Origin: an uncultured Anaeromyxobacter sp.
Lineage (GTDB): Bacteria > Myxococcota > Myxococcia > Myxococcales > Anaeromyxobacteraceae
Assembly: GCA_903874275.1 (NCBI GenBank)
Contig: CAIQRS010000146.1
Span: 1-64,000, forward strand
Reading direction: 5' to 3'
DNA: 64,000 bases
How positions within the stretch are numbered: the first letter of the stretch is position 1; each line of letters opens with the position of its first letter. The notes beneath the pieces were generated by a model. It saw nothing but the letters and a program-made list of their open reading frames with translations, had not been told where the DNA came from and made no database searches. This document shows positions 5,018 through 36,566 of the stretch, in pieces. The position numbers and the translations under genes are program-made.

Positions 5018-5254
5018 ATGCGCGGCAAGCGGGAACGACTCTTCGAGTGCACCTACGGCACCCCCGGCGACGAGAGGAAGGTGGTCTTCCGCGCCTGGAC
5101 TCCCGTCGAGGCGGCCGCCGGCGTCGAGGAGGCCCTGCAGGGCGCGGGCATTCCCCTGGTCGGGGAGATCACCGTCCGCGATGCGCGCGGGCGCCTGGTC
5201 CTGAGGGTGCCCGTCCGCCCGTTTCACCAGTCCGGCATCTCCGGCGCGGCTTGA
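5018..5254 (+). CDS. Small uncharacterised protein (RERLFEC family, copy 1)
   Basis: ATG with GGAGGATCC upstream; MRGKRERLFECTYGTPGDERKVVFRAWTPVEAAAGVEEALQGAGIPLVGEITVRDARGRLVL; similar to the ORF at 36363-36566. Confidence 0.7.
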   Translation: MRGKRERLFECTYGTPGDERKVVFRAWTPVEAAAGVEEALQGAGIPLVGEITVRDARGRLVLRVPVRPFHQSGISGAA

Positions 5255-7786: not shown

Positions 7787-8488
7787 ATGCGCATCCTGGT
7801 CGTCGAGGACGCGCGGGCGCTGGCCCGCTCCATCGCCGAAGGGCTCTCCGAGGAGGGCTACTCGGTGGACCTCTCCCACGACGGCGAGGAGGGGCTGCAC
7901 CTGGCCACGGAGATCGCCTACGACGGCATCGTGCTCGACCGGATGCTGCCCGGTCTCGACGGCCTCACCTTGCTCCGTCGGCTGCGCCAGGGAGGACGGC
8001 GAACGCCGGTGCTGCTCCTCACGGCGCTCGGGGAATTGCACGACCGCGTGGCCGGGCTCGACGGGGGGGCCGACGACTACCTGGTGAAGCCCTTCGCCTT
8101 CGAGGAGCTGGTGTCGCGGGTGCGGGCGCTGGTTCGACGCGGCCTCGGGCAGGCGGACAACCGGGTCGTTCTCGGATCCCTGGAGCTCGACCTGGGGGCC
8201 CGCGTCGCCTCGGTCGGGGGCGTGGTCCTGGACCTGACGGCGCGGGAGTTCGCCCTCGTGGAGCTCTTCGCGCTCTCGCCGGGGAAGACCTTCTCCCGGA
8301 CCGCCATCGCCGAGAAGCTCTACTCGGAGGAGGCCGACCTCGACAGCAACGTCATCGACGTCTTCGTCGGGAGGGTGCGGCGCAAGCTGGACGCGGCCGG
8401 GATGCCCGGGAGCGAGGTCATCTGCACCCGGCGTGGCGAGGGGTACCGCCTCGACCCGGCCGCGGCCGCCGCGAAGGGGAAGCGGTGA
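7787..8488 (+). CDS. OmpR-family response regulator
   Basis: MRILVVEDARALARSIAEGL, LVKPFAFEEL, C-terminal winged helix LTAREFALVELFALSPGKTFSRTAI...VFVGRVRRKLD. Confidence 0.93.
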   Translation: MRILVVEDARALARSIAEGLSEEGYSVDLSHDGEEGLHLATEIAYDGIVLDRMLPGLDGLTLLRRLRQGGRRTPVLLLTALGELHDRVAGLDGGADDYLVKPFAFEELVSRVRALVRRGLGQADNRVVLGSLELDLGARVASVGGVVLDLTAREFALVELFALSPGKTFSRTAIAEKLYSEEADLDSNVIDVFVGRVRRKLDAAGMPGSEVICTRRGEGYRLDPAAAAAKGKR

Positions 8489-9915
8489 CCCTCCGCGCCA
8501 AGATCGTGGCCCTGGTCGTCGGGCTCACCCTGGCGCTCCTCGGCGGCCTGGCCGCCTTCCTGGGCGGCTCCTGGTCCCGCTGGTCGCTCGACACCCTGGA
8601 TGCGGAGCTCACGGATCGCGCCGCCGGCATCGCCGCCCGGATCGAGGTGAAGCGGGACGGCCGGATCGAGATGGAGGGAGGGGAGGGCGCGCCGAGGGAC
8701 ACCTCCCACCCCGTTCGCGTCATCGGCCCGGGTGGGGAGATCGTGGGCCATGGAACGCTCCCCTGGCCCTCGCCGGAATCGGGCGCCGTCACGGTACAGG
8801 GCGCGCCGGACGGCCCGTGGAGGGTGGTGACGCGGCGGCTCCCCGCGGGCGAGGACGAGGGAGGCGGGCGGCACGCGCGAGCGGGGGTGGTGGTCCAGGT
8901 GGCGGGGCAGGAAGCTCCCTTCGCCGCGCTGGGCGAGCGCTTCAGGGAGGGGCTCCTGGCGGCGCTCGTCGGCGCCCTGCTCCTGGGAGGGGTGGCAGCG
9001 GCCCTTCTCGCGCACCTCTCCCTTCGCCCCCTCCGCCGCCTGGCCACGGAGGTGGAGTCCATCGGCGCGACGATGCTCGACCGGCGGGTCGGGGAGGACG
9101 GCCTCGACCCCGAGCTCCGGCACGTGGCCCGCTCCTTCAACGAGTTGCTGGGTCGGCTCGAGCAGGCGATGCAGCGCCAGCGCCAGCTCGTCTCCCGGGC
9201 CAGCCACTCGCTGCGAACTCCCACGGCCACGATCCTCACCCGCGCCGAGGTGGCGCTCCGCCGGGACCGGTCGCCCGAGGAGTACCGCGCGGCGCTCGCC
9301 GACGTCGCGGTCGCGGCGCGCGAGTCGTCGACGCTGGTGACCCACCTCCTCACCCTGGCGCGCCTCGAGGAGCCGCGCGCCAACGCCGTGCGGCAGCCGG
9401 TTCCGCTCGAGCCCCTGGCGGCCGAGGTGGCCCGGCTCCTGGCGCCGCGCGCCGCCGAGGCCGGCCTCGCCATCGAGGTGGACGTCCCGGGCGGTCTCGC
9501 GGTCCGGGCCGACCCGGCCACGCTTCGCGAGCTCCTGGAGGCGCTCCTCGACAACGCCCTCCTCTACACCCCGAGTGGAGGGCGGTGCGGCGTCCGTGCC
9601 GAGCCGGGTGCGGGCACCATCTCGCTCTCGGTCTGGGACACCGGCCCGGGCATCCCCGTGGCGGAGCGCGGCCAGGTGTTCGACCGCTTCTTCCGCGGCG
9701 TCGCCGCCCAGGGGTCCGGCCGGCCCGGGAGCGGCCTGGGGCTCGCCATCGTCAAGGCCATCGCGGATGCCCACGGGGCCAGGCTCACGCTCGGGGAGCG
9801 CCCGGGTGGCGGGGCGGTCTTCTCGGTGGAGCTTCCGCTCGGGGAGGACGGGAAGGTCAGCGGGCGGGCGCAGGTCGGGAGCAGCCGACGAGGCGCGACA
9901 CGCACGCGACCGTGA
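8485..9915 (+). CDS. Sensor histidine kinase
   Basis: SRASHSLRTPTATILTRAEVAL H-box, LLDNALLYTPSGG N-box, GPGIPVAERGQVFDRFFRG, GSGLGLAIVKAIADAHGARLTLGERPGGG; start overlaps the response regulator stop. Confidence 0.93.
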   Translation: MTLRAKIVALVVGLTLALLGGLAAFLGGSWSRWSLDTLDAELTDRAAGIAARIEVKRDGRIEMEGGEGAPRDTSHPVRVIGPGGEIVGHGTLPWPSPESGAVTVQGAPDGPWRVVTRRLPAGEDEGGGRHARAGVVVQVAGQEAPFAALGERFREGLLAALVGALLLGGVAAALLAHLSLRPLRRLATEVESIGATMLDRRVGEDGLDPELRHVARSFNELLGRLEQAMQRQRQLVSRASHSLRTPTATILTRAEVALRRDRSPEEYRAALADVAVAARESSTLVTHLLTLARLEEPRANAVRQPVPLEPLAAEVARLLAPRAAEAGLAIEVDVPGGLAVRADPATLRELLEALLDNALLYTPSGGRCGVRAEPGAGTISLSVWDTGPGIPVAERGQVFDRFFRGVAAQGSGRPGSGLGLAIVKAIADAHGARLTLGERPGGGAVFSVELPLGEDGKVSGRAQVGSSRRGATRTRP

Positions 9916-10190
9916 TCGCCACGGCGACGAGGCCGACCGAGAACCATCCGATCCGGCTCCAGGCCTCCGAAGAAGACCGCCGTGGAGTTTGCAGGCAGGA
10001 GCCCGGCGAGTACCGCGGCCAGGCAGAGCGGGGCGTCGATGCGACCCTGTGCCACGAGCATTCCCATCGAGACGACGACGATCTCCTCTGGGAAGGAGGG
10101 CAGGACGCACCCCTGCAGCAGGATCCAGCTCGCGGCGAGCGCCACCTGCCACTGCGGGAGGTCGGCGACCCGGGCGAGCAGTTCATTCAC
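9857..10190 (-). pseudogene. DedA-family membrane protein remnant with an internal deletion
   Basis: N-terminal VNELLARVADLPQWQVALAASWILLQGCVLPSFPEEIVVVSMGMLVAQGRIDAPLCLAAVLAGLLPANSTAVFF then jumps frame to SSEAWSRIGWFSVGLVAVAITVACVSRLV, matching the N- and C-terminal parts of the intact copy at 22441-23046. Confidence 0.85.
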
Positions 10191-10259
10191 GCCCTGTTCC
10201 AAGCCACGGGTCGGTGAGGGATTCGGGTCCGGACCGGGGCGGTCAGGTGACGATCCGGT

Positions 10260-10502
10260 TCAGGGGGCGGCCTCGAGCTTCCGGAAGGGCTCGGCATGCA
10301 GGAAGCCCGGGCAAGGATCGCAGGTCCAGCTTCTCCATCCGCTGCGGAACGCCACCTCCAGGCAACGCTCGTAGGCCGGGCACCAGAGACTTCGCCTCCG
10401 CCCCATCTCCTCGGGTGACAGCGCCGCCGACAGCTCGGAGGGCCCCGCCAGGCGCGGGTCTACGGCGAGCCGGAGGCGGGTGCGCAGGTCGATGATCTTC
10501 AT
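10260..10502 (-). CDS. Small four-Cys protein (RRSLWCPAYE family, copy 1)
   Basis: MKIIDLRTRLRLAVDPRLAGPSELSAALSPEEMGRRRSLWCPAYERCLEVAFRSGWRSWTCDPCPGFLHAEPFRKLEAAP; paralogue at 23055-23321 in the same order. Confidence 0.75.
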   Translation of the reverse strand: MKIIDLRTRLRLAVDPRLAGPSELSAALSPEEMGRRRSLWCPAYERCLEVAFRSGWRSWTCDPCPGFLHAEPFRKLEAAP

Positions 10503-10515
10503 GGCGCGAGGCGGC

Positions 10516-10758
10516 TCAGGCCGGGGTTCCGGCCGCGGCTTCCGATGGCGCGGATGTCTCCGGCGGCGACGACCGCTGGACCCGGTCCACCTCCGCGACG
10601 CCCGCCGACCAGGCATCGGAGGTCGAGGAATGCCACCCCCGGAGGAGCACCCCGTCCACGGCGACCACCCACTTCCGGCCACCGCCGAACACCTGGAGGA
10701 CGTGCCGTCCAATCTGGAACATGTTGGCCATGGGTGCCTCTCGGGTCTCGCGGGACAT
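10516..10758 (-). CDS. Small uncharacterised protein (VDGVL family, copy A)
   Basis: MANMFQIGRHVLQVFGGGRKWVVAVDGVLLRGWHSSTSDAWSAGVAEVDRV; three paralogues in the window. Start may be the ATG at 10731. Confidence 0.78.
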   Translation of the reverse strand: MSRETREAPMANMFQIGRHVLQVFGGGRKWVVAVDGVLLRGWHSSTSDAWSAGVAEVDRVQRSSPPETSAPSEAAAGTPA

Positions 10759-10794
10759 GCGCGCATGCTCGGGGAGGAGGGCGGCGCCGCGGCG

Positions 10795-10814
10795 GCGCTC
10801 CGGCGACGATTCGG
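10795..10814 (-). promoter_or_regulatory. Shared upstream motif (gene-sense CCGAATCGTCGCCGGAGCGC), possible Pho-box variant
   Basis: Near-identical block upstream of 14078(-), 23556(-), 25656(-) and 34555(+) genes. Confidence 0.5.
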
Positions 10815-10888
10815 GAAAGCCGGACCGTCACCGGATCGCCTTCCCGGCGCCCCGGAACCGAAACCCTGCTCGACTAGCCAGGAGGGCA

Positions 10889-11026
10889 ATGGACCCAGTC
10901 CAACCGGATCGGCATCTCCTGCTCCTCGCCCTGCTGGTGTGGGGCTTCCTCACGGTCATCGGCGTGATCATCTCCCGCTTCATGAGCCACCGGTCCGGGC
11001 AGGCCCCCAGGCGGCGAGGCCCATGA
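10889..11026 (+). CDS. Single-TM micropeptide
   Basis: GGAGGG RBS then MDPVQPDRHLLLLALLVWGFLTVIGVIISRFMSHRSGQAPRRRGP; stop overlaps next ATG (ATGA). Confidence 0.55.
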   Translation: MDPVQPDRHLLLLALLVWGFLTVIGVIISRFMSHRSGQAPRRRGP

Positions 11027-11232
11027 GCAACATCTTCATCGTCGGCACCCACGTGTTCAACGTGTTCGTCAGCGGCGCCGGCTGGGCGATGTCCGTCGAC
11101 GGGGTCCTCGTCGAAGGCACCTTTCCGACGAGGAGCGATGCCTGGGAAGCCGGGCTCGTCTTGGTGGAACGAGCCGACCGGCTCGCGGAGGAGTCCCGGC
11201 GGCGGGGTTCCGCGAAAGACCCTCACACCTGA
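11023..11232 (+). CDS. Small uncharacterised protein (VDGVL family, copy C)
   Basis: MSNIFIVGTHVFNVFVSGAGWAMSVDGVLVEGTFPTRSDAWEAGLVLVERADRLAEE; near-identical N-terminus to the 34555 copy. Confidence 0.78.
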   Translation: MSNIFIVGTHVFNVFVSGAGWAMSVDGVLVEGTFPTRSDAWEAGLVLVERADRLAEESRRRGSAKDPHT

Positions 11233-11412: not shown

Positions 11413-11432
11413 CGTCACCGACACTTCACCGC
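11413..11432 (+). promoter_or_regulatory. Pho-box-like direct repeat CGTCACC-GACA-CTTCACC
   Basis: 7-bp repeats, 4-bp spacer (11-bp period), upstream of alkaline phosphatase; conserved at 33120-33141 before the second copy. Confidence 0.6.
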
Positions 11433-11513: not shown

Positions 11514-12716
11514 ATGAGTGAAGGTCAGGCAGGATTCCTCTCCGCCGCTGGATGGCAGCGGCTGGCGGCCGTCTCCGCCATCGCCCTCGCGGCCGCCGGG
11601 GGCGCCCCGGCGCGCGCCGACGGCGGCGAGAAGGGGCACGCGAAGAACGTCATCATCATGGTCCCGGACGGCATGGGGCTCGCCGACGTGACCGCCACCC
11701 GCATCTACAAGCACGGGCTCGACGGGTTGCTCAACTTCGAGACGCTGGAGCACATCGGCTACCAGAGGACCTACTCGGCCAACAGCGTCATCACCGACTC
11801 CGCCCCGGCGGCGTCGGCCTGGGCCTGCGGCGAGAAGTTCAACAACGGCGAGATCTGCTTCCACGGCGACGGGCGGGCCTTCAAGCCCAGCATCCTCGAG
11901 CTGGCCCGGAAGCAGGGGAAGGCCACCGCGCTCGTCGCCACCTCCACCATCACCCACGCCACGCCGGCCTCCTTCGGCGCGCACGTGGTCAACCGCAACT
12001 GCGAGAACGAGATCGCCCGTCAGTACATCCAGGTGACCGGGGTCGACCTGCTGCTCGGCAGCGGCGTCGACAAGTTCACGTCGGTCAAGGCCGACGCCTG
12101 CGGGACGGTGGGCGACCTCATCCCCCAGGCGAAGGCCAAGGGTTACGCCGTGGCGTACGACAAGGCGGGGCTGGACGCCGCGGTCGCCGCCGGTGGCAAG
12201 AAGATCCTCGGCCTCTTCGGCAACGGCGGGACGGTTCCCGAGTACCTCCGCACCCCCGCCACGACCGAGCCGCACCTCCCCGAGATGGCCGCCGCGGCGC
12301 TGAAGGTCGTGGAGAAGAACCGCAGCGGCTTCTTCCTCATGGTGGAGGGGTCCCAGGTCGACTGGGCCAACCACGCCAAGGACTACCCCTACCAGCTCGG
12401 CGAGATGCTCGCCTTCGACGACGCCGTGAAGGTCGTCCGGGACTGGATCGACGCCGACGAGGACCGCCGGGAGAACACGTTGCTCATCGTCGTCGCCGAC
12501 CACGACACCGGCGGCTTCGCCATCAACGGGCCGCAAACGGCCCTCCTCAAGGCGGGCGAGAAGGTCGAAGCGGGCTGGACGACCGGCAACCACACCGGCG
12601 TCGACACGCTCATCTGGAGCCAGGGGCCGGGCAGCAAGGCGCTGACCCGCGCCATCGACAACACCGAGATCTACGGGGTGATGGTCAAGGCCCTGGGCGA
12701 CGCGAAGGACGAGTAG
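11514..12716 (+). CDS. Alkaline phosphatase (PhoA family), copy 1
   Basis: Signal peptide; NVIIMVPDGMGLADVTATR, YSANSVITDSAPAASAWACGEKFNNGE (active-site Ser), LMVEGSQVDWANHAKDYPY, VVADHDTGGFAINGP, WTTGNHTGVDTLIW. Confidence 0.95.
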   Translation: MSEGQAGFLSAAGWQRLAAVSAIALAAAGGAPARADGGEKGHAKNVIIMVPDGMGLADVTATRIYKHGLDGLLNFETLEHIGYQRTYSANSVITDSAPAASAWACGEKFNNGEICFHGDGRAFKPSILELARKQGKATALVATSTITHATPASFGAHVVNRNCENEIARQYIQVTGVDLLLGSGVDKFTSVKADACGTVGDLIPQAKAKGYAVAYDKAGLDAAVAAGGKKILGLFGNGGTVPEYLRTPATTEPHLPEMAAAALKVVEKNRSGFFLMVEGSQVDWANHAKDYPYQLGEMLAFDDAVKVVRDWIDADEDRRENTLLIVVADHDTGGFAINGPQTALLKAGEKVEAGWTTGNHTGVDTLIWSQGPGSKALTRAIDNTEIYGVMVKALGDAKDE

Positions 12717-14151: not shown

Positions 14152-14386
14152 AGAGGAAGCTCACACGCGTGCGCGCGTCCCCCCGAAGTGATGGGTCCGT
14201 CCCGCCGCAAACGTCCTGTTACACGAATGGTGAACCCCGTTCGCGAGGTCGTTCCGGGAGCGCAACACGGCGTCCGTAGAGTGCTCCCCGCGTCCCGAGC
14301 CGGGACGCCGGCCCCGGAGGCGGATCCCTGCCGCCCGCCACCGCGCAGGAGAGGGAGGGCGGCGAGGAGACCGGCCACCACCTCCG

Positions 14387-14824
14387 CTGGAGCGGGAGCA
14401 CGGCCGCAAGATCCCCGCCCTCATGTTCTTCCACATCCCGCTGCAGGAGTTCCGCACGATGTACGACAACGACGCCTACAGGCGCGTCCACCCCGAGCTC
14501 GGGCTCGTCCCGCAGCATGGCGTCATCGGTGAGCGGAACGAGGACGAGTGCCCGGGACCGTTCAACAGCGGCCTCTTCGCGGCGGCGCTGGAGCGCGGTG
14601 ACGTGAAGGGCATCTTCGTCGGGCACGACCACGTGAACGACTGCGTCGGCAACTACTTCGGCATCCAGCTGGGGCACTCGGCCAACTCCGGCTTCGCGAC
14701 CTACGGTCTCGGCGGATCCGAGAACCACCGCATGCGCGGGGCCCGCGTCTTCCAGGTGGACGAGCGAGCTCCCGCGGGCTTCAAGACCCGCATGGTCCGC
14801 GCCATCGACTACGGCATCCAGTAG
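14387..14824 (+). pseudogene. C-terminal fragment of calcineurin-like metallophosphatase (N-terminal ~230 codons missing)
   Basis: LEREHGRKIPALMFFHIPLQEFRTMYDNDAYRRVHPELGLVPQHG... nearly identical to the C-terminus of the intact 34987-36114 gene; upstream CGCAACACGGCGTC[C/G]GTAG leader also conserved. Confidence 0.88.
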
Positions 14825-20196: not shown

Positions 20197-20260
20197 GTCA
20201 GGGCTCGATGCGCGAGCCAGGAGGACGAGGAACTTGCGCATCCACTCCGGGTGCGCGGGC

Positions 20261-20353
20261 CAGGCCGTCGCGGATGCCCACGGGGCCAGGCTCACGCTCG
20301 GGGAGCGCCCGGGTGGCGGCCTGGTGGTGTCCGTGGTGCTGCCGGATTCCTGA
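20261..20353 (+). pseudogene. Histidine kinase C-terminal remnant
   Basis: QAVADAHGARLTLGERPGGGLVVSVVLPDS*; 52 bp (20268-20319) identical to 9761-9812 of the HK. Confidence 0.8.
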
Positions 20354-20398: not shown

Positions 20399-20424
20399 AC
20401 CGTCATGGAAACGTCACCTCCAGC
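20399..20424 (+). promoter_or_regulatory. Pho-box-like repeat CCGTCATGGAAACGTCACC
   Basis: CGTCAT/CGTCAC repeats ~11 bp apart, upstream of the secreted pyrophosphatase. Confidence 0.6.
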
Positions 20425-20501: not shown

Positions 20502-21293
20502 ATGATCCGGTCGATGTCCACGCTCGCGGCGGTCACCGCCGCACTTCTCGCATTTCCCGCCGCACCGGCCCGCGCCACCGAAGACGTGAAGGTGATCGAG
20601 ATCCAGGGACGCGACGACGCGCCCGACGCCTCCGGACGCGACGACGACGAGCACGGGGACGGCGTCGTCTACCTCGACGCCTTCACGCTGAAGGGTCACC
20701 GGAATTTCCTCACCGGCTACCCCACCCGGAACGCCGACGGGACCTACAACGTGGCCGTGGAAATCCCGACGGGCACGAGCGAGAAGTGGGAGACGTGCAC
20801 GAGCTCGTCGGTCGCCGACCCGGTCGCCTTCCCGCGCTGCGGCGAGGCGAAGCCCGGGCGCATCATGGTGCAGGAGGTGAAGAAGGGCGCCCGCCGCGTG
20901 GTGAGCTTCCTCGGGTACCCGGGCAACTACGGTTCTCTTCCTCGCACCCAGGGTGCCGACGGCGACCCGCTCGACATCATCGCCGTCGGGCCGAAGGCCG
21001 AGCGCGGCACCGTGGTTGCGGTCAAGGTGGTCGGGGTCATCCGCTGCATCGACGGGACCGATCAGGACGACAAGGTCATCGCGATCACCCAGGACTCGCC
21101 GCTCTACGCCAAGGTGAGCACCCTCGCCGATCTCAACGAGAAGGCGGTGAACGGCGCCGAGATCCTTCGCACCTGGTTCGACAGCTACAAGGGGGCCAAG
21201 CCGGGATCCGGCATGGACTGCTCGAAGGTGGACGACGAGGTCGTGGCGGCGAATCTCATCGCCGAAGCCCAGGCGGCGTTCACCACCCCTTAG
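20502..21293 (+). CDS. Secreted inorganic pyrophosphatase
   Basis: Signal peptide; VEIPTGTSEKWE, VSFLGYPGNYGSLPRT, GADGDPLDIIAVG, GVIRCIDGTDQDDKVIAI motifs of family I PPase. Confidence 0.88.
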   Translation: MIRSMSTLAAVTAALLAFPAAPARATEDVKVIEIQGRDDAPDASGRDDDEHGDGVVYLDAFTLKGHRNFLTGYPTRNADGTYNVAVEIPTGTSEKWETCTSSSVADPVAFPRCGEAKPGRIMVQEVKKGARRVVSFLGYPGNYGSLPRTQGADGDPLDIIAVGPKAERGTVVAVKVVGVIRCIDGTDQDDKVIAITQDSPLYAKVSTLADLNEKAVNGAEILRTWFDSYKGAKPGSGMDCSKVDDEVVAANLIAEAQAAFTTP

Positions 21294-22440: not shown

Positions 22441-23046
22441 CTACGCCGCCCGGAGCGCGACCACGGCCCGACGGCCGACCAAGACCGCGAGGGCTCCACC
22501 CACGAGCGCGGCGGAGGCCCATCCGATCCGGGCCCAGGCCTCAGCAGCCGTCGCGCCCTCCCCGAGGCGCGAGCCGAGCCAGAGGAGGAGAGGGACCTGG
22601 ACGCAGGCGGCCGCGGCGTCGAGCGCGAAGAAGCGGGCGACGCCGAAGCCGGAGAGGCCGGTCGCCAGGTAGACCGGGCCGCGGACGAAGGGCACGAAGC
22701 GGGTGACCACCACGAGGAGCGGTCCGTGGCGCCGCAGGGCCTCGGAGGCCGCCGCGACCCGGGGGGAGGAGAGGGTCCGTCCCAGGAATCCGGCGTTCCC
22801 GATCCGCCGACGGGCCAGGCTCCCGATGAACACAGCCGCGGAGTTGGCGGGGAGGAGCCCGGCCAGGACCGCCGCCATGGCGAGCGGGGCCGAGATGCGC
22901 CCCTGCGCCACCAGCATGCCCATGGTGGTGGTCACGATCTCCTCGGGCAGCGACGGGACGACGCAGGCCTGCAAGAGCAGCCAGGTCGCGGCGAGCGCGA
23001 TCTGCCACTGGGGAAGCTCGGAGATCCGGGCGACGAGGTCGTCCAC
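22441..23046 (-). CDS. DedA-family (SNARE-associated) membrane protein, intact copy
   Basis: PSLPEEIVTTTMGMLVAQGRISAPLAMAAVLAGLLPANSAAVFIGSLARRRIG, VVVTRFVPFVRGPVYLATGLSGF; GTG start at 23046. Confidence 0.87.
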   Translation of the reverse strand: MDDLVARISELPQWQIALAATWLLLQACVVPSLPEEIVTTTMGMLVAQGRISAPLAMAAVLAGLLPANSAAVFIGSLARRRIGNAGFLGRTLSSPRVAAASEALRRHGPLLVVVTRFVPFVRGPVYLATGLSGFGVARFFALDAAAACVQVPLLLWLGSRLGEGATAAEAWARIGWASAALVGGALAVLVGRRAVVALRAA

Positions 23047-23054
23047 GCTGCCGA

Positions 23055-23321
23055 TCAGCGTAGCACCGGCCGAGGGGCGTCGCCGGGCGAGCCGTCTCCC
23101 GGCCGGGCGTGGAACGAATGGGCCGCCACCCGCCTCCGGTGGGGCCCGGCTTCCTGGAAGAGGACGCAGTGCTCGCAGGTCCAGCTGCGCCAGCCGGCCC
23201 GGAGGGCAAGCATGAGGCAGCTCTCGTAGGCCGGGCACCACAGGCTGCGCCGCTGGTCGATCTCCTCCGGCTCGAGCGACTTCGCGAGCTGCGAGGGACC
23301 CGGTCCCGGTGTCGTCGTCAT
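23055..23321 (-). CDS. Small four-Cys protein (RRSLWCPAYE family, copy 2)
   Basis: MTTTPGPGPSQLAKSLEPEEIDQRRSLWCPAYESCLMLALRAGWRSWTCEHCVLFQEAGPHRR. Confidence 0.77.
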   Translation of the reverse strand: MTTTPGPGPSQLAKSLEPEEIDQRRSLWCPAYESCLMLALRAGWRSWTCEHCVLFQEAGPHRRRVAAHSFHARPGDGSPGDAPRPVLR

Positions 23322-23328
23322 GGAAGCC

Positions 23329-23556
23329 TCACGATTTCCGGCTGCCCGCCAGGGCCAGGGCAGGCTCCGCGGCCGGGGACATGATCCCGAGCCGGTCCAC
23401 CTCTGCGACCCCCGCCGACCAGGCGTCCGCCGACGTCGAGTGCCAGCCGCGGAGGAGCACGCCGTCCACGGCGACCACCCAGCGCCCCTGGTTCCCGAAG
23501 ACCTGGAGCACGTGCCGTCCGACCTGGAAGATGCTCTTCATCTGCACCGTCTTCAT
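23329..23556 (-). CDS. Small uncharacterised protein (VDGVL family, copy B)
   Basis: MKSIFQVGRHVLQVFGNQGRWVVAVDGVLLRGWHSTSADAWSAGVAEVDRLG. Confidence 0.8.
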   Translation of the reverse strand: MKTVQMKSIFQVGRHVLQVFGNQGRWVVAVDGVLLRGWHSTSADAWSAGVAEVDRLGIMSPAAEPALALAGSRKS

Positions 23557-23616: not shown

Positions 23617-23635
23617 GCGCTCCGGCGACGATTGG
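23617..23635 (-). promoter_or_regulatory. Shared upstream motif (gene-sense CCAATCGTCGCCGGAGCGC)
   Basis: Upstream of 23556(-); same motif as at 10795. Confidence 0.5.
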
Positions 23636-23706: not shown

Positions 23707-25656
23707 CTACCGGATGGCCGGAAGGGCTCCGTTCGCCGTGCCGACGTAGCCGATGGCGGCCTTCTTGCGGCCGCCCCACCTGGCGTCGATGGCGTCGAGG
23801 ACGTTCTTCTCGGAGAGGATCACCGCCCCGGTGGCGTCCTTCACGCCCTTGAACGTCCCCACCTGGCTCTGCTCGGCCGGGTGCTGGAAGTTGCTCATGA
23901 CGTAGGAGAAGCCGTTGGCGTCGTCCACCACCTGGAGCCCCGTGGCCTCGGCGTACATGGGGACCGAGAGGATGCGGGAGAGCTTCCGGGTGTCCACGTT
24001 GAAGGCCCAGACGTAGTTGTTGTTCCGGCGGCTGGTGTCCTCGCCGACGAAGAGGGTCCGCATGCCCTCGGAGAACTTGATGTTGTCCGGGCCACAGACC
24101 TTGTCCTGCAGGCAGCGGTTGCCCTCGGCGTCCCGCGTGCCGCCCAGCCAGCCTCCGAGCAGCTCGGGGATGCTCACCATGGTGGTGGCCACGAGACGGC
24201 TCGGGATGGGCCGGCCGCCCGTGTCGCGCTGCCCGGCCGCGAGGGCGAGCTCGTAGATGGCGCCGCCGTCGTTCTTGGCCAGGCGGACGTCGTCCTGCGG
24301 GTCGGTGGCGCTCGTCAGCATGCCGCCCTCGATGCGCGAGATCACGACGTAGGCCTTCTTGTCCACCTCGTTGTGGGAGATGCCCTCCATCTTGGCGAAC
24401 TCGGTGGTGGCCCCGAGAAGCGCGGCGTAGCGGCGGGTCTCGAAGAACGCGGCGGCCTTCTCCATGCCCGGCTTGAGGCGCAGCCACTCGGTGCCGGTGT
24501 AGGTCTTCACCTTCTTGAAGGAGGGGTGGAGCGGATCGACGTTGGAGACGTCGAAGATGTCGGCGAAACGGATGCCGCGGTCGGCGAGCGCCTGCAGCTC
24601 CTCGTCCTCGGCGTGGCCGAGCCGGATCCAGGACAGGGTGGCGGCGCCGCCGCTCAGGTCGCTCGTCTGGGTCCACTTGCCCGCGTAGAGGGTGCCTTCG
24701 GAGAGCTCGCCCTTCTCGTCGGCGACGAACAGGAAGAGGCCGGTGTAGGCGCCGTCGTCGCCCATGTAGACGGTGCGGCCGTCGGGCAGGACGTCGGCCA
24801 GCTCGCGCGCGAAGCGGCCGAGCGCCCGGTGCTTCACGACCGAGGTCTTGCCGTCCTTGCGGACCTTCACCTCGGGCACGAGCCCGTAGTCGTAGGCGTT
24901 CGCCGTGGCGGCGTTGCCGAACCAGGCGCGGCTGAAGCCGTCGATGTCGGTGCCGTCGTCGGAGTCAGCGGCCTTGGGCGCGACGCCCTGGCGGACCTTC
25001 GCGTCGGGCTCGTACTCCTCGGAGGAGAGGTGCGTGTTCCAGGGAGTGAGCGAGGAGGCGCAGTGGATCCACCCGCCCTTGACGCCCGAGAAGTCGACCC
25101 GATCGTAGCTCGTGAGCTTGAGCGCGCCCGAGCGCTTGTCCTGGTCGAGGCGGGAGAGCCCGGTGGGGGCGGGGAGCCTGGACCAGTAGCTGTCGTAGGT
25201 GGTGACCGCCGGGTAGTTGGGCGGCAGTTCCCGGTACTCGAACTGGGTCACGAGGGCGAGGCCGTTGGCGTGGCGGGGGTCGGCGGCGCGGAGCCCCGGG
25301 ATCACCATCAGGGAGTTGCCGTCCGGGGCGTCGGAGGCCAGCTGGCCGAAGCTGTCGGTGATGGCGATGCCGCGCGAGTCGACGAAGCCGCCGACCACGT
25401 TGCCCCCGACCACGTCGGTCGTGTCGGCGAGCTTGTGGAACTTGAGGTCGAGGGTCTCCGACTTTCCGTTACGGTAGGTGACGATCACCTTGGCCGCGGT
25501 GTAGACGTCGGCCCGCTCGTCCACGGTCGCCGGAGCCGGCATCCCGACGAACTCGACCGACGAGACCTTGGCGTCGTGCGCACGGGCTGTGGGTGCTGCG
25601 AGGAAGGTGAGCCCCGCGGTGAGCGCGGCCACGGATCGAATCACTCTGGTTGCCAT
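23707..25656 (-). CDS. PhoX-type alkaline phosphatase (DUF839)
   Basis: Signal peptide; CASSLTPWNTHLSSEEYEPDA, VYMGDDGAYTGLFLFVAD, GPDNIKFSEGMRTLFVGEDTSRRNNNYVWAFNV. Confidence 0.85.
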   Translation of the reverse strand: MATRVIRSVAALTAGLTFLAAPTARAHDAKVSSVEFVGMPAPATVDERADVYTAAKVIVTYRNGKSETLDLKFHKLADTTDVVGGNVVGGFVDSRGIAITDSFGQLASDAPDGNSLMVIPGLRAADPRHANGLALVTQFEYRELPPNYPAVTTYDSYWSRLPAPTGLSRLDQDKRSGALKLTSYDRVDFSGVKGGWIHCASSLTPWNTHLSSEEYEPDAKVRQGVAPKAADSDDGTDIDGFSRAWFGNAATANAYDYGLVPEVKVRKDGKTSVVKHRALGRFARELADVLPDGRTVYMGDDGAYTGLFLFVADEKGELSEGTLYAGKWTQTSDLSGGAATLSWIRLGHAEDEELQALADRGIRFADIFDVSNVDPLHPSFKKVKTYTGTEWLRLKPGMEKAAAFFETRRYAALLGATTEFAKMEGISHNEVDKKAYVVISRIEGGMLTSATDPQDDVRLAKNDGGAIYELALAAGQRDTGGRPIPSRLVATTMVSIPELLGGWLGGTRDAEGNRCLQDKVCGPDNIKFSEGMRTLFVGEDTSRRNNNYVWAFNVDTRKLSRILSVPMYAEATGLQVVDDANGFSYVMSNFQHPAEQSQVGTFKGVKDATGAVILSEKNVLDAIDARWGGRKKAAIGYVGTANGALPAIR

Positions 25657-31337: not shown

Positions 31338-32888
31338 CTACTCGTCCTGCGCCTCTCCGCCGCGGTGGCCGCGGGGAGCCGAGCGGGGCGCCGACAGCGT
31401 GAACCGGTCGAAGACGGAGCCCACCGACATCGGGAAGGAGACCTTCGCCAGGTGGTCGCGGCAGGCCTGGACCCGGTCCGCGCCCCAGCTGGGCTCGACG
31501 TCGGGGCCGCTCGCGACGAAGGCCTCGGCGGTCATCCCCCGCCGCGGGTCGGTCGAGACCACGACGAAGGACCGGAAGCAGTTCTCCTCGAAGTCCGGGG
31601 CGATGCCCAGGTTCGGGGAGACCGGCGGATCGGCTGGCGACCAGTAGTTCGTCCCCAGGGAGGCGGCCTCGATGTAGTGGACGCCCTTCACCGCGTAGCG
31701 CTCGTAGACGTGCGAGTGGCCGAAGCTCACGCCGTTCACGCCGTAGTACTGGTAGAGGGGCATGAGGTCGAGGGTCAGGTCGTCACGCGGGTAGGTCACC
31801 TTCCCGGCGGCGTCGATCACGGGCTGGGTGAACGGAACGGCGACGTCGCTGCGCCGGTTCAGCATGTGCCAGTGCTGCGTCACCCAGATGTAGCGGCCGG
31901 CGCCGTGGGCCCGGGCCAGGTCGAAGGCCAGCCAGTCGTGCTGCGGGCTGCCCGCCTGGATGCCGTCGAGCAGCAGCCAGCCCGGTGGGTCGTAGGCGTC
32001 CCACCCGAAGGCGCGGAAGAGCGAGAGCGACGCGACGTGGACGTCGCCGAAGTCGGCCCCGTACCAGTGCTTCCCGCCGGCGTAGGGCTGCTGCTCGGGG
32101 TAGAGCGGCCGGAAGAGCTGCTCGTAGATGCCGAGGGAGATCTCCCGGAGGTCCACGAGGTCCTTCCGCGACAGGCGCTCCTGGCCGTCCACCTCGTGGT
32201 TGCCGGGAGCCGGGTAGATGGGGGTGTACTGCAGGAGGCGCGCCCCGTCGGTGGTCTGCTGCATCTCCTCGAACCAGCGCAGCCCGTCGGGGTTGTTCGC
32301 GACCCCCCTGGTCTTGAACCACTCGTCGGCCTTGTACGGGGTGTTCTGGAGATCTCCGCTGTAAACGATGAAGTCCGCCCCCTGCTTGCCGGCGAGCACC
32401 AGCGTGGCCGGTCCCTGGCTCTTCAGCTGGAGGTCGGAGAGGAGGAGGAACTTCACCGGCTCACCGCGGCGCGGGGCGGTCCGGAAGTCGTAGCCGGCGC
32501 CGACGAAGCGCCCGGCGGGTGTCTCGGTGACCACCCGGTAAAAGTAGCGGGTGCCCGGCTCGAGGTCGTCGAGGTGAGCCACCTGCTGGTAGGCCCGGAA
32601 CGGGACCGGGTAGGAGCGGGAGACCGCGTCCCACTGCCGGAGGCCGGTGATCTCGTGGGTGCGCGTCTCGGCGACGCGACCGTAGGTGGGGCCGAGCCCG
32701 TACTCCACCCAGGAACGGGTCCCTGGCTCGGAGGTGAGCCAGAGGACGTTCATGGACCGGGACGGGCGCGGGGCCACCAGGTACGGCTCGGTGTACGTCA
32801 CCGGCCAGTGGAGCGGCGTGGCCGCCAGGGTGGGCGCAGCTGCCGCGAGGGCCGCGGCTGCCAGGATGGTGGAGAGGATTCGCTTCAT
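31338..32888 (-). CDS. Purple-acid-phosphatase-like secreted metallophosphoesterase
   Basis: Signal peptide MKRILSTILAAAALAAAAPTLA; FnIII-like N-domain; LLLSDLQ, YSGDLQNTPY, APGNHEVDG, VTQHWH, FGHSHVYER. Confidence 0.88.
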   Translation of the reverse strand: MKRILSTILAAAALAAAAPTLAATPLHWPVTYTEPYLVAPRPSRSMNVLWLTSEPGTRSWVEYGLGPTYGRVAETRTHEITGLRQWDAVSRSYPVPFRAYQQVAHLDDLEPGTRYFYRVVTETPAGRFVGAGYDFRTAPRRGEPVKFLLLSDLQLKSQGPATLVLAGKQGADFIVYSGDLQNTPYKADEWFKTRGVANNPDGLRWFEEMQQTTDGARLLQYTPIYPAPGNHEVDGQERLSRKDLVDLREISLGIYEQLFRPLYPEQQPYAGGKHWYGADFGDVHVASLSLFRAFGWDAYDPPGWLLLDGIQAGSPQHDWLAFDLARAHGAGRYIWVTQHWHMLNRRSDVAVPFTQPVIDAAGKVTYPRDDLTLDLMPLYQYYGVNGVSFGHSHVYERYAVKGVHYIEAASLGTNYWSPADPPVSPNLGIAPDFEENCFRSFVVVSTDPRRGMTAEAFVASGPDVEPSWGADRVQACRDHLAKVSFPMSVGSVFDRFTLSAPRSAPRGHRGGEAQDE

Positions 32889-33119: not shown

Positions 33120-33141
33120 CGTCACGTACACTTCACCGCCG
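33120..33141 (+). promoter_or_regulatory. Pho-box-like CGTCACG-TACA-CTTCACC
   Basis: Same layout as at 11413, upstream of alkaline phosphatase 2. Confidence 0.6.
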
Positions 33142-33223: not shown

Positions 33224-34423
33224 ATGAGTGAAATCAGCGGCAGGTTCCTGGCAGGGATTCACTGGCGGCGGCTGGCGGCGGTCTCGGCGATCGTCCTCGC
33301 GTCGGCGTGCGCCTTCACGGCGCGGGCCCAGGGGGCCGGCGAAGGCAAGGCCCGGAACATCATCGTCATGGTCCCGGACGGCATGGGGCTCGCCGACGTC
33401 ACCGCCACCCGCATCCACCGGCACGGCCTGGACGGGATGCTGAGCTTCGAGACCCTGGAGCACATCGGCTACCAGAAGACCTACTCGGCCAACAGCGTCA
33501 TCACCGACTCCGCCCCGGCCGCCTCCGCCTGGGCCTGCGGCGAGAAGTTCAACAACGGCGAGATCTGCTTCCACGGCGACGGCCGTCCCTTCAAGCCCAG
33601 CATCCTCGAGCTGGCGAAGAAGCAGGGGAAGGCCACCGGCCTGGTGGCCACCTCCACCATCACCCACGCCACGCCGGCCTCCTTCGGCGCCCACGTGGTC
33701 AACCGCAACTGCGAGAACGAGATCGCCCGCCAGTACATCCAGGTGACCCGTCCCGACGTGATCCTCGGCAGCGGAGTGAGCAAGTTCCGGTCGGTGGCGG
33801 CCGACGCCTGCGGGGCGGTGGGCGACCTCATCCCCGAGGCGCAGGCAAAGGGCTACGCCGTGGCCTACGACAAGGCCGGGATGGACGCCGCGGTCGCCGG
33901 CGGCGGCCGCAAGATCCTCGGCCTCTTCGGCAACGGCGGGACGGTCCCCGAGTACCTCCGCACGCCGGCCACCACCGAGCCGCACCTCCCGGAGATGACC
34001 ACGGCGGCCCTGGAGGTCCTCGGCAAGAGCCGGCACGGCTTCTTCCTCATGGTGGAAGGCTCCCAGGTCGACTGGGCCAACCACGCCAAGGACTACCCCT
34101 ACCAGCTGGGCGAGATGCTCGCCTTCGACGACGCCGTGAAGGTCGTCCGCGCCTGGATCGACGCCGACGGGGACCGCAGGGAGAACACCCTGCTCATCGT
34201 CGTCGCCGACCACGACACCGGCGGCTTCGCCATCAACGGCCCGCAGTCGGCGCTGCTCCAGGCGGGCGGCACGGTCGAGGCGGGCTGGACGACCGGGAAC
34301 CACACCGGGGTCGATACGCTCATCTGGAGCGCGGGCCCCGGCAGCAAGGCGCTGACGCGCGCCATCGACAACACCGAGATCTACGGGGTCATGGTCAAGG
34401 CCCTGGGCGACGCGAAGGAATAG
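33224..34423 (+). CDS. Alkaline phosphatase (PhoA family), copy 2
   Basis: Highly similar to the 11514-12716 product over its length (NSVITDSAPAASAWACGEKFNNGEICFHGDGR...). Confidence 0.95.
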   Translation: MSEISGRFLAGIHWRRLAAVSAIVLASACAFTARAQGAGEGKARNIIVMVPDGMGLADVTATRIHRHGLDGMLSFETLEHIGYQKTYSANSVITDSAPAASAWACGEKFNNGEICFHGDGRPFKPSILELAKKQGKATGLVATSTITHATPASFGAHVVNRNCENEIARQYIQVTRPDVILGSGVSKFRSVAADACGAVGDLIPEAQAKGYAVAYDKAGMDAAVAGGGRKILGLFGNGGTVPEYLRTPATTEPHLPEMTTAALEVLGKSRHGFFLMVEGSQVDWANHAKDYPYQLGEMLAFDDAVKVVRAWIDADGDRRENTLLIVVADHDTGGFAINGPQSALLQAGGTVEAGWTTGNHTGVDTLIWSAGPGSKALTRAIDNTEIYGVMVKALGDAKE

Positions 34424-34483: not shown

Positions 34484-34506
34484 GTGAATCGTCGCCGGAC
34501 CGACCC
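34484..34506 (+). promoter_or_regulatory. Shared upstream motif GAATCGTCGCCGGACCG
   Basis: Upstream of VDGVL copy D; same block as upstream of other family members. Confidence 0.5.
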
Positions 34507-34554
34507 GGAACGGCCTGGCCGGGTCGGGCAGGATCCGGTCACGGGGAGGCGCGG

Positions 34555-34791
34555 ATGAGCAACATCTTCATCGTCGGAGACCAGGTGTTCAACGTCTTCG
34601 AAGGCGGATCGGGCTGGCGGATCTCGGTGAACGGGGTCCTCATGGAAGAATCGTACCTGACCCGGAGCGACGCCTGGATGGCCGGCGTCGCCGAGGTGGA
34701 CCGGCTGGCGCGTCACTTCGCCGGACCACGGGAGGAGGGGGACGGCGCCCCGCGAGACGACCGTGGGCGCGACGTATCTCACCCGGAGTGA
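34555..34791 (+). CDS. Small uncharacterised protein (VDGVL family, copy D)
   Basis: MSNIFIVGDQVFNVFEGGSGWRISVNGVLMEESYLTRSDAWMAGVAEVDRLARHF. Confidence 0.8.
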   Translation: MSNIFIVGDQVFNVFEGGSGWRISVNGVLMEESYLTRSDAWMAGVAEVDRLARHFAGPREEGDGAPRDDRGRDVSHPE

Positions 34792-34986: not shown

Positions 34987-36114
34987 GTGAACCGAGAGAG
35001 AAGACTCTTCATCCCCATCCTGGGCGCCATGCTGCTCGCCGCCCTGGCCCCCGCCTCGTCCGCCGCCGCGCAGGAGCGCGGAGACCTGGACGAGGCGCAC
35101 CGCCTGCCTCGCTTCGACCGCGCCGGGCAGCTCAAGATCGTCCAGTTCACCGACACCCAGGACGGGCCGAACACCGATCCCCGCACCGTGGCCCTCATCC
35201 GCGCCGTGCTCGACGATCAGAAGCCCGACCTGGTGGTCTTCACCGGCGACCAGCTCACCAGCGCGAGCAGGACGCCCGACGACGTGCGCAAGGCCATCGA
35301 CAACATCGTGCGCCCGGTGGACGAGCGGCGCATCCCCTGGCTGGTGGCCTTCGGGAACCACGACGAGGACCACACCCCGAGGAGCGGGCTGGACGAGGCG
35401 TCGATGCTCCGGATCTACATGTCCTACCCGTACAACGTGAACCGGGTCGGTCCCGAGGGCATCACCGGCACGGGCAACATGAACCTGCTCGTCCGCGGGC
35501 ACCACTCCGACGCCCCCGTGTTCGCCGTCTGGGCGATCGACTCCGGCCGCTACGCGCCCGCCAAGATCGCCGGGCAGGTCCTCGACGAGGACGCCCTGCT
35601 CGGGTGGGGCTGGATGCCGACCTGGGACTGGATCAAGCACGACCAGGTGAACTGGTACACGCGCACCTCGGAGAAGCTGGAGCGGGAGCACGGCCGCAAG
35701 GTCCCGTCGCTCATGTTCTTCCACATCCCGCTGCACGAGTTCCGCACCATGTACGACAACGACGCCTACAAGCGCGCCCACCCCGAGCTCGGGCTCGTTC
35801 CCCAGCACGGCGTGGTCGGCGAGCGGAACGAGGACGAGTGCCCGGGACCGTTCAACAGCGGGCTCTTCGCCGCCGCGCTCGAGCGCGGTGACGTGAAGGG
35901 CATCTTCGTCGGCCACGACCACGTGAACGACTACGTGGGCAACTACTTCGGGATCCTGCTCGGCTACTCGGCCAACAGCGGATTCGCCACCTATGGCCTG
36001 GGCGGCCCGGAGAACCACCGCATGCGCGGGGCCCGGGTCTTCCAGGTCGACGAGCGGGACCCCGCCAAGGTGGTCACGCGCATGGTCCGTGCGATCGACT
36101 ACGGCATCCAGTAG
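34987..36114 (+). CDS. Secreted calcineurin-like metallophosphatase, intact copy
   Basis: GTG start, signal peptide; IVQFTDTQDG, VVFTGDQL, VAFGNHDEDH, MFFHIP, GHDHVNDYVG. Confidence 0.9.
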   Translation: MNRERRLFIPILGAMLLAALAPASSAAAQERGDLDEAHRLPRFDRAGQLKIVQFTDTQDGPNTDPRTVALIRAVLDDQKPDLVVFTGDQLTSASRTPDDVRKAIDNIVRPVDERRIPWLVAFGNHDEDHTPRSGLDEASMLRIYMSYPYNVNRVGPEGITGTGNMNLLVRGHHSDAPVFAVWAIDSGRYAPAKIAGQVLDEDALLGWGWMPTWDWIKHDQVNWYTRTSEKLEREHGRKVPSLMFFHIPLHEFRTMYDNDAYKRAHPELGLVPQHGVVGERNEDECPGPFNSGLFAAALERGDVKGIFVGHDHVNDYVGNYFGILLGYSANSGFATYGLGGPENHRMRGARVFQVDERDPAKVVTRMVRAIDYGIQ

Positions 36115-36362: not shown

Positions 36363-36566
36363 ATGAGTTCTCGCGAGCGTTTCTTCGAATGCGTCCTCAA
36401 CCAGGACACGGATGAGTACAGGCTCCACGTGCGCGCGTGGAACGCCAAGGATGCAGAGGAGGAGGCCCGCGTCTCCCTCCACAACAGCGGCGTCCCTGAT
36501 CGGGGGACGCTGCACATCCGGGATCAGAAGGGCGTCGAGATCCTGAACGCCAGTTTCGCTCGCTGA
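36363..36566 (+). CDS. Small uncharacterised protein (RERLFEC family, copy 2)
   Basis: MSSRERFFECVLNQDTDEYRLHVRAWNAKDAEEEARVSLHNSGVPDRGTLHIRDQKGVEIL, alignable with 5018-5254. Confidence 0.7.
   Translation: MSSRERFFECVLNQDTDEYRLHVRAWNAKDAEEEARVSLHNSGVPDRGTLHIRDQKGVEILNASFAR

Follow-up and report, generated by a model that had tools for sequence, protein, structure and literature searches.

Genes of the phosphatase island

The window, meaning the whole stretch of 64,000 nucleotides analyzed here, belongs to an uncultured Anaeromyxobacter sp., and its contig starts with pstA-pstB-phoU. Four mini-proteins, herein named A to D, are encoded in the phosphatase region downstream, as a first-pass annotation of this DNA had claimed: two phoA genes, phoX, and the genes of a purple acid phosphatase, metallophosphoesterases, and a pyrophosphatase (ppa) lie around them (Table 1). 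B adjoins phoA1, and D adjoins phoA2. All four ORFs are present where that annotation had placed them, and the residue pattern it described is common to all, with 18 invariant columns in the four-way alignment. With D as the query against the whole genome, B (E 4.8e-17), A (1.5e-12), and C (1.2e-9) are retrieved far beyond chance. For A, the existence of the ORF stands, but not its proposed start at 10758: the gene most likely begins at 10731, because the M-x-x-F start seen throughout the family is found there, together with a GAGG ribosome site. The ATG at 10758 would lengthen the protein by nine residues.

Table 1 Positions of the mini-proteins A to D, their partner genes, regulatory features, and related genes of the island
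Feature	Position	Strand	Remarks
Mini-protein A	10516..10731	-	71 aa; orthologue A' in G001, dN/dS 0.40 (NG86); family-wide start
Mini-protein B	11023..11232	+	69 aa; orthologue B' in G001, dN/dS 0.23
Mini-protein C	23329..23556	-	75 aa (70 aa from 23541); homology, dN/dS, structure model
Mini-protein D	34555..34791	+	78 aa; homology; B/D dN/dS 0.36
Cys-rich mini-protein downstream of A	10260..10502	-	WCPxYExC...CxxC, 80 aa; 88% identical in G001
Cys-rich mini-protein downstream of C	23055..23321	-	88 aa
VTT-domain gene remnant downstream of A	9857..10202	-	N- and C-terminal parts joined in different frames
VTT (DedA/SNARE-associated-like) membrane protein downstream of C	22441..23046	-	PF09335, E 3.6e-8
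45-aa peptide upstream of B	10889..11026	+	one hydrophobic (transmembrane-like) stretch
Divergent intergenic region, A versus 45-aa-ORF/B unit	10760..10888		94-97% identity with G001
Motif GAATCGTCGCCGGA upstream of A	10799..10812	-	exact
Motif GAATCGTCGCCGGA upstream of D	34486..34499	+	exact
Motif CAATCGTCGCCGGA upstream of C	23621..23634	-	one mismatch to GAATCGTCGCCGGA
Pho box of phoA1	11413..11430	+	CGTCACC-gaca-CTTCACC
Pho box of phoA2	33120..33137	+	pstS-trained model
Pho box of ppa	20401..20418	+	pstS-trained model
phoA1	11514-12716		phoA gene in island
phoA2	33224-34423		phoA gene in island
phoX	23707-25632		island phosphatase gene
Purple acid phosphatase	31338-32888		island gene
Metallophosphoesterase	35029-36114		full copy
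Metallophosphoesterase, truncated copy	14423-14824		
Pyrophosphatase (ppa)	20502-21293		island gene
FECxxxPG family, copy in window	5018-5254	+	
FECxxxPG family, copy in window	36429-36566	+	
FECxxxPG family, other copy	G000:C146:74814-75035		L059:10814-11035
FECxxxPG family, other copy	L042:12627-12839		
FECxxxPG family, other copy	L141:3409-3645		

Selection on the mini-proteins

A to D are real genes that are selected as proteins. The dN/dS ratios (NG86) of A/A', B/B', A/C, and B/D range from 0.23 to 0.40 (A/C, 0.31), each ratio being rough since the sequences are short; for A/B and C/D, the divergence is too great to inform. The first-pass annotation had likewise considered them genes and had named a lack of homologues and a ratio near 1 as grounds for doubt; homologues were found, and the ratios indicate purifying selection. 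Spurious ORFs might be expected in a genome with 71% GC and many overlapping open frames, and the codon score of A is weak. Against this stand the W, VDG, and DAW positions conserved in homologues from 16 genomes, the dN/dS ratios, and the good ribosome sites at B, C (from 23556), and D, so that a spurious origin is already refuted by conservation. The reality of the small-protein family is close to certain.

Distribution of the family

A profile built from A to D finds relatives, among the 60 related genomes searched, in Anaeromyxobacteraceae only. Once broadened, it identifies members in 16 of 24 Anaeromyxobacteraceae genomes, about 40 copies in all, eight of them in this genome and nine in the second Anaeromyxobacter genome, G001; hence, the four-member family proposed at first is too small. 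Across 197 Myxococcota genomes, no convincing copy lies outside Anaeromyxobacteraceae, the one weak match being DUF2188-looking. The profile search suggested with the annotation therefore gave homologues outside the genome but none that convinces elsewhere in the phylum. The scan of the genome collection sampled other phyla shallowly, with two stringent peptide patterns, and returned one locus. Plasmid and phage collections (tblastn) contain no relative.

The claim that no named family applies holds, as Pfam, NCBIfam, PHROGs, and PADLOC offer no convincing family, and a profile search of PDB sequences gave no significant match. The family consensus is F-x-V-G-x-H-x-V-x-V ... R-W-x-V-x-V-D-G ... 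A-x-A-W-x-A-G-V-x-E-A-x-R-L. In the tree, the island members cluster weakly (86/36), with better support for an inner group (96/92). A to D form a local sub-clade of this unnamed family of proteins of roughly 55-75 residues, probably cytosolic, which is restricted to Anaeromyxobacteraceae among the genomes searched. Proteins below 80 residues are often missed by annotation. Here, such a family is defined and can be tested: about 40 sequences are available, the fold is predicted with confidence, the divergent upstream region is conserved, and the partner genes are named.

Predicted fold and comparison with known families

An AlphaFold2 model of C, made with six sequences as input, shows three antiparallel strands (residues 2-7, 10-17, and 20-25), whose sheet is packed on one helix (37-54). 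The core has a pLDDT of about 92, and the tail, which evolves fast, is of low confidence. Foldseek returned no match under E 0.001 among PDB and viral models.

The loose likeness to DUF2188 (PF09954) that had been noted earlier is right as a remote similarity. DUF2188 proteins, too, are small standalone bacterial proteins in which a W-x-V-x-x-x-G strand pair precedes a helix starting at T/S-x-x-[AD]-A, and hhalign aligns the family with a DUF2188 set at 82% probability over 37 columns (strand-strand-helix), leaving the C-terminal half of DUF2188 unaligned. However, the Pfam gathering threshold, 22 bits, is reached by no member (the lowest E for 26 members is 0.0038, and B scores 13.7 bits), and this genome has no DUF2188 match above the Pfam cut-off. 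The A to D family carries an extra N-terminal strand (F-x-V-G-x-H-x-V-x-V), whereas the C-terminal strand and the G-x-I ... N-x-Y-G-N-D-P tail of most of the DUF2188 set (G-x-I/N-x-Y-G) are found in none of the aligned family members. True DUF2188 proteins occur separately in Anaeromyxobacteraceae.

Among the viral models, the structural matches include two phage DUF1508 (YegP-like) proteins (E 0.11, TM about 0.42; not significant), and the family has no DUF1508 match in Pfam. The best PDB match is MMOD, the inhibitory subunit of methane monooxygenase (6d7k), which is of similar size (E 0.14, TM 0.48, 13% identity); no methane monooxygenase is among the genes identified here.

Some mini-domains that bind DNA or RNA have a strand-strand-helix topology as well. 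A to D could hence be nucleic-acid-binding three-strand-plus-helix domains that regulate the island, and one sub-clade of the family is indeed strongly basic (pI about 11, net +5 to +7). A to D themselves are acidic to slightly basic (net -6 to +2), however, and no DNA-binding domain in the PDB is a significant structural match. Charge is mixed across the family (pI 4.6-11.6); with no basic character in common, this argues against one conserved nucleic-acid-binding surface and a common nucleic-acid function, and we regard such a role as improbable.

Upstream motif and intergenic region

That a sequence motif precedes three of the four genes was confirmed, exactly for A and D and with one mismatch for C. 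In the whole 5.07-Mb genome, exact GAATCGTCGCCGGA occurs only before A and D; six further sites have one mismatch, that of C among them, and the reversed control gave none. With up to three mismatches allowed, sites in the window are no commoner than in shuffles. A and C are similar in the DNA upstream of the gene too, and their motif copies are therefore not independent. The copy of D falls outside the D/B repeat described below.

A and the 45-aa-ORF/B unit are transcribed divergently from one intergenic region. Over 120 nt upstream, A is 94% and the 45-aa ORF 97% identical to G001, the highest values in a set of 15 upstream regions of orthologues (90% for phoA1 and 31-88% for the rest). Because this identity is the highest of all regions compared, the A/B intergenic stretch is, judging by its conservation, a constrained regulatory region, whatever binds there. 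Scans for sigma-70 promoters and terminators around A/B found nothing, and Rfam gave chance-level matches only.

Pho boxes and possible phosphate control

A Pho-box model was trained on 37 half-sites from 13 pstS promoters in related genomes, and scores were compared with those of 188 control promoters. Its consensus, CGTCAC[CG] in an 11-nt register, agrees with the published Pho-box definition (PMC4415409). The boxes of phoA1, phoA2, and ppa are clearly detected (p 0.011-0.016), with imperfect sensitivity, phoX reaching p 0.13 only. The promoters of A to D are not above controls (A, p 0.11; C, 0.17; D, 0.31). A single good half-site (CGTCGCC or CGTCACC) is present at A, B, and D, with dimer scores within controls. 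The motif core CGTCGCC is a half-site variant and resembles a single Pho half-site; the first half-site in the pstS promoters of G013 and G021 is GAATCGTCGCC or CAATCGTCGCC, which is nearly the string of the motif. As the core is such a variant and the promoters of A to D do not exceed controls, phosphate control of the four genes is possible, though unproven. Earlier Pho-box models, trained partly on phosphatase promoters of the window, had given A and D p values of about 0.05-0.07, a signal that the independent model trained on pstS promoters, taken as the test, does not support.

A gene at 12789-14078- encodes an exported-looking protein of 429 aa with no Pfam match; it has a Pho-box-like site at 14128-14145- (p 0.016) and a motif copy with three mismatches. 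As a by-product, the model could serve to map the Pho regulon in Anaeromyxobacteraceae.

Partner genes

The partner genes are not the same for A/C, B, and D. Downstream of A and of C follow a Cys-rich mini-protein, with no match in Pfam, and a VTT-domain gene. The Cys-rich ORF at A differs from that of G001 by 6/5/18 changes at the three codon positions; its structure model was of low confidence (pLDDT 54) and was set aside. The VTT remnant downstream of A has lost its middle part, and the gene is intact in G001 (208 aa). In front of B, the stop of the 45-aa peptide overlaps the start of B (ATGA); the peptide is 84% identical in G001, and its coding signal is weak (5/3/6 by codon position). 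In a conserved pair, a 63-aa ORF (MRDEPVIDMRLTHLMALDASL...) is joined to a family member by the same type of overlap at G000:C237:3801-4171-, G001:C155:78061-78416+, and G002:C202:2520-2899+.

Small, multi-copy genes that sometimes overlap a small ORF, as at B and at these three loci, may recall toxin-antitoxin or phage-derived mini-genes. PADLOC, however, gave 0 matches for the six window proteins tested, there is no convincing or consistent PHROG match and no relative in the plasmid and phage collections, and the 45-aa and 63-aa partners are unlike each other, which makes such an origin highly improbable.

The Cys-rich family (WCPxYExC...GWRSWTCxxC) has relatives in 23 of 24 Anaeromyxobacteraceae genomes, one adjoining a second pstSCAB set (G012:C134) and another a pyruvate-kinase homologue (G002:C329).

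Gene neighborhoods and duplication history

In G001, the A'/B' pair has the same divergent arrangement between the VTT gene and the phosphatase genes, downstream of pstSCAB-phoU and inside pstSCAB-phoU...phoA. The pair is missing from G003, of the same genus, in which the pst island and a VTT gene are present, and it is therefore dispensable. At the 17 further family loci whose neighborhoods were examined, no phosphatase or pst gene lies alongside; one locus adjoins homologues of the permease and KdpDE-like genes of the window. The neighborhood check suggested earlier thus bears out the island linkage of A to D, and of the G001 pair too, but not that of the other 17 loci, and a family-wide link to phosphate was rejected. 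To call the four proteins probable phosphate-stress effectors, as the first-pass annotation did, is overstated, given the other contexts and the promoter scores; a role in phosphate starvation is plausible, yet unproven.

The four genes make up two pairs of duplicates, A with C and B with D. DNA repeats cover 11008-11171 and 34540-34703 (B/D), 10579-10671 and 23389-23481 (A/C), phoA1 and phoA2, and 14386-14685 and 35676-35975; the module of A, Cys-rich, and VTT genes is repeated with C. In the simplest reading, one island module was duplicated, followed by loss and rearrangement. Herein, two ancestral members, of the A and B type, would have shared one conserved intergenic region as divergently transcribed genes and would have been copied along with adjacent phosphatase-island genes, giving C and D. 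The gene fragment at 20234-20353+, in which 83 nt match the histidine-kinase gene at 8485-9915 with 88% identity, is another trace of duplication.

Possible roles of A to D

A small protein of a sheet plus a helix, encoded together with membrane and Cys-rich partners, fits the picture of a protein-binding adaptor. We infer, with a probability of about 0.35, that A to D are cytosolic adaptors co-expressed with the phosphate-scavenging genes: the folded core would bind a protein, A and C may act with the Cys-rich mini-protein and the VTT membrane protein, B with the 45-aa membrane peptide, and together with these partners they would modulate a membrane or signaling partner of the island.

About equally likely, A to D belong to a general small-protein family, specific to this lineage and active in housekeeping or stress independently of phosphate, around which the island was duplicated. 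Members scattered beside unrelated genes, the lack of a Pho-box excess at A to D, and a distribution that follows the lineage rather than phosphate genes are in line with this. It fits less well with the retention of A/B at an unchanged place of the island in two species, together with an exceptionally conserved shared upstream region, with C and D being kept under selection after duplication, and with a rare 14-mer common to three of the four.

As recent work shows, phosphate sensing can be under the control of small proteins that bind directly. Small DUF1127 proteins, present as several paralogues, bind the sensor kinase PhoR and tune phosphate uptake (PMC12501420). The analogy with A to D is functional only; the sequences are unrelated, and the family has no DUF1127 match. 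By this analogy, the adaptor reading may be extended, although such an extension is unlikely: the family would have been drawn into the phosphate island and multiplied there, with copies paired with different membrane or Cys-rich partners and tuning phosphate sensing or scavenging. If true, a recruited adaptor family would be the analogue of the DUF1127-PhoR link in another fold.

A second recurring small-protein family, FECxxxPGxExxFxVRAWxAxEAE..., is encoded in and near the island and is weakly DUF6894-like (E 0.012).
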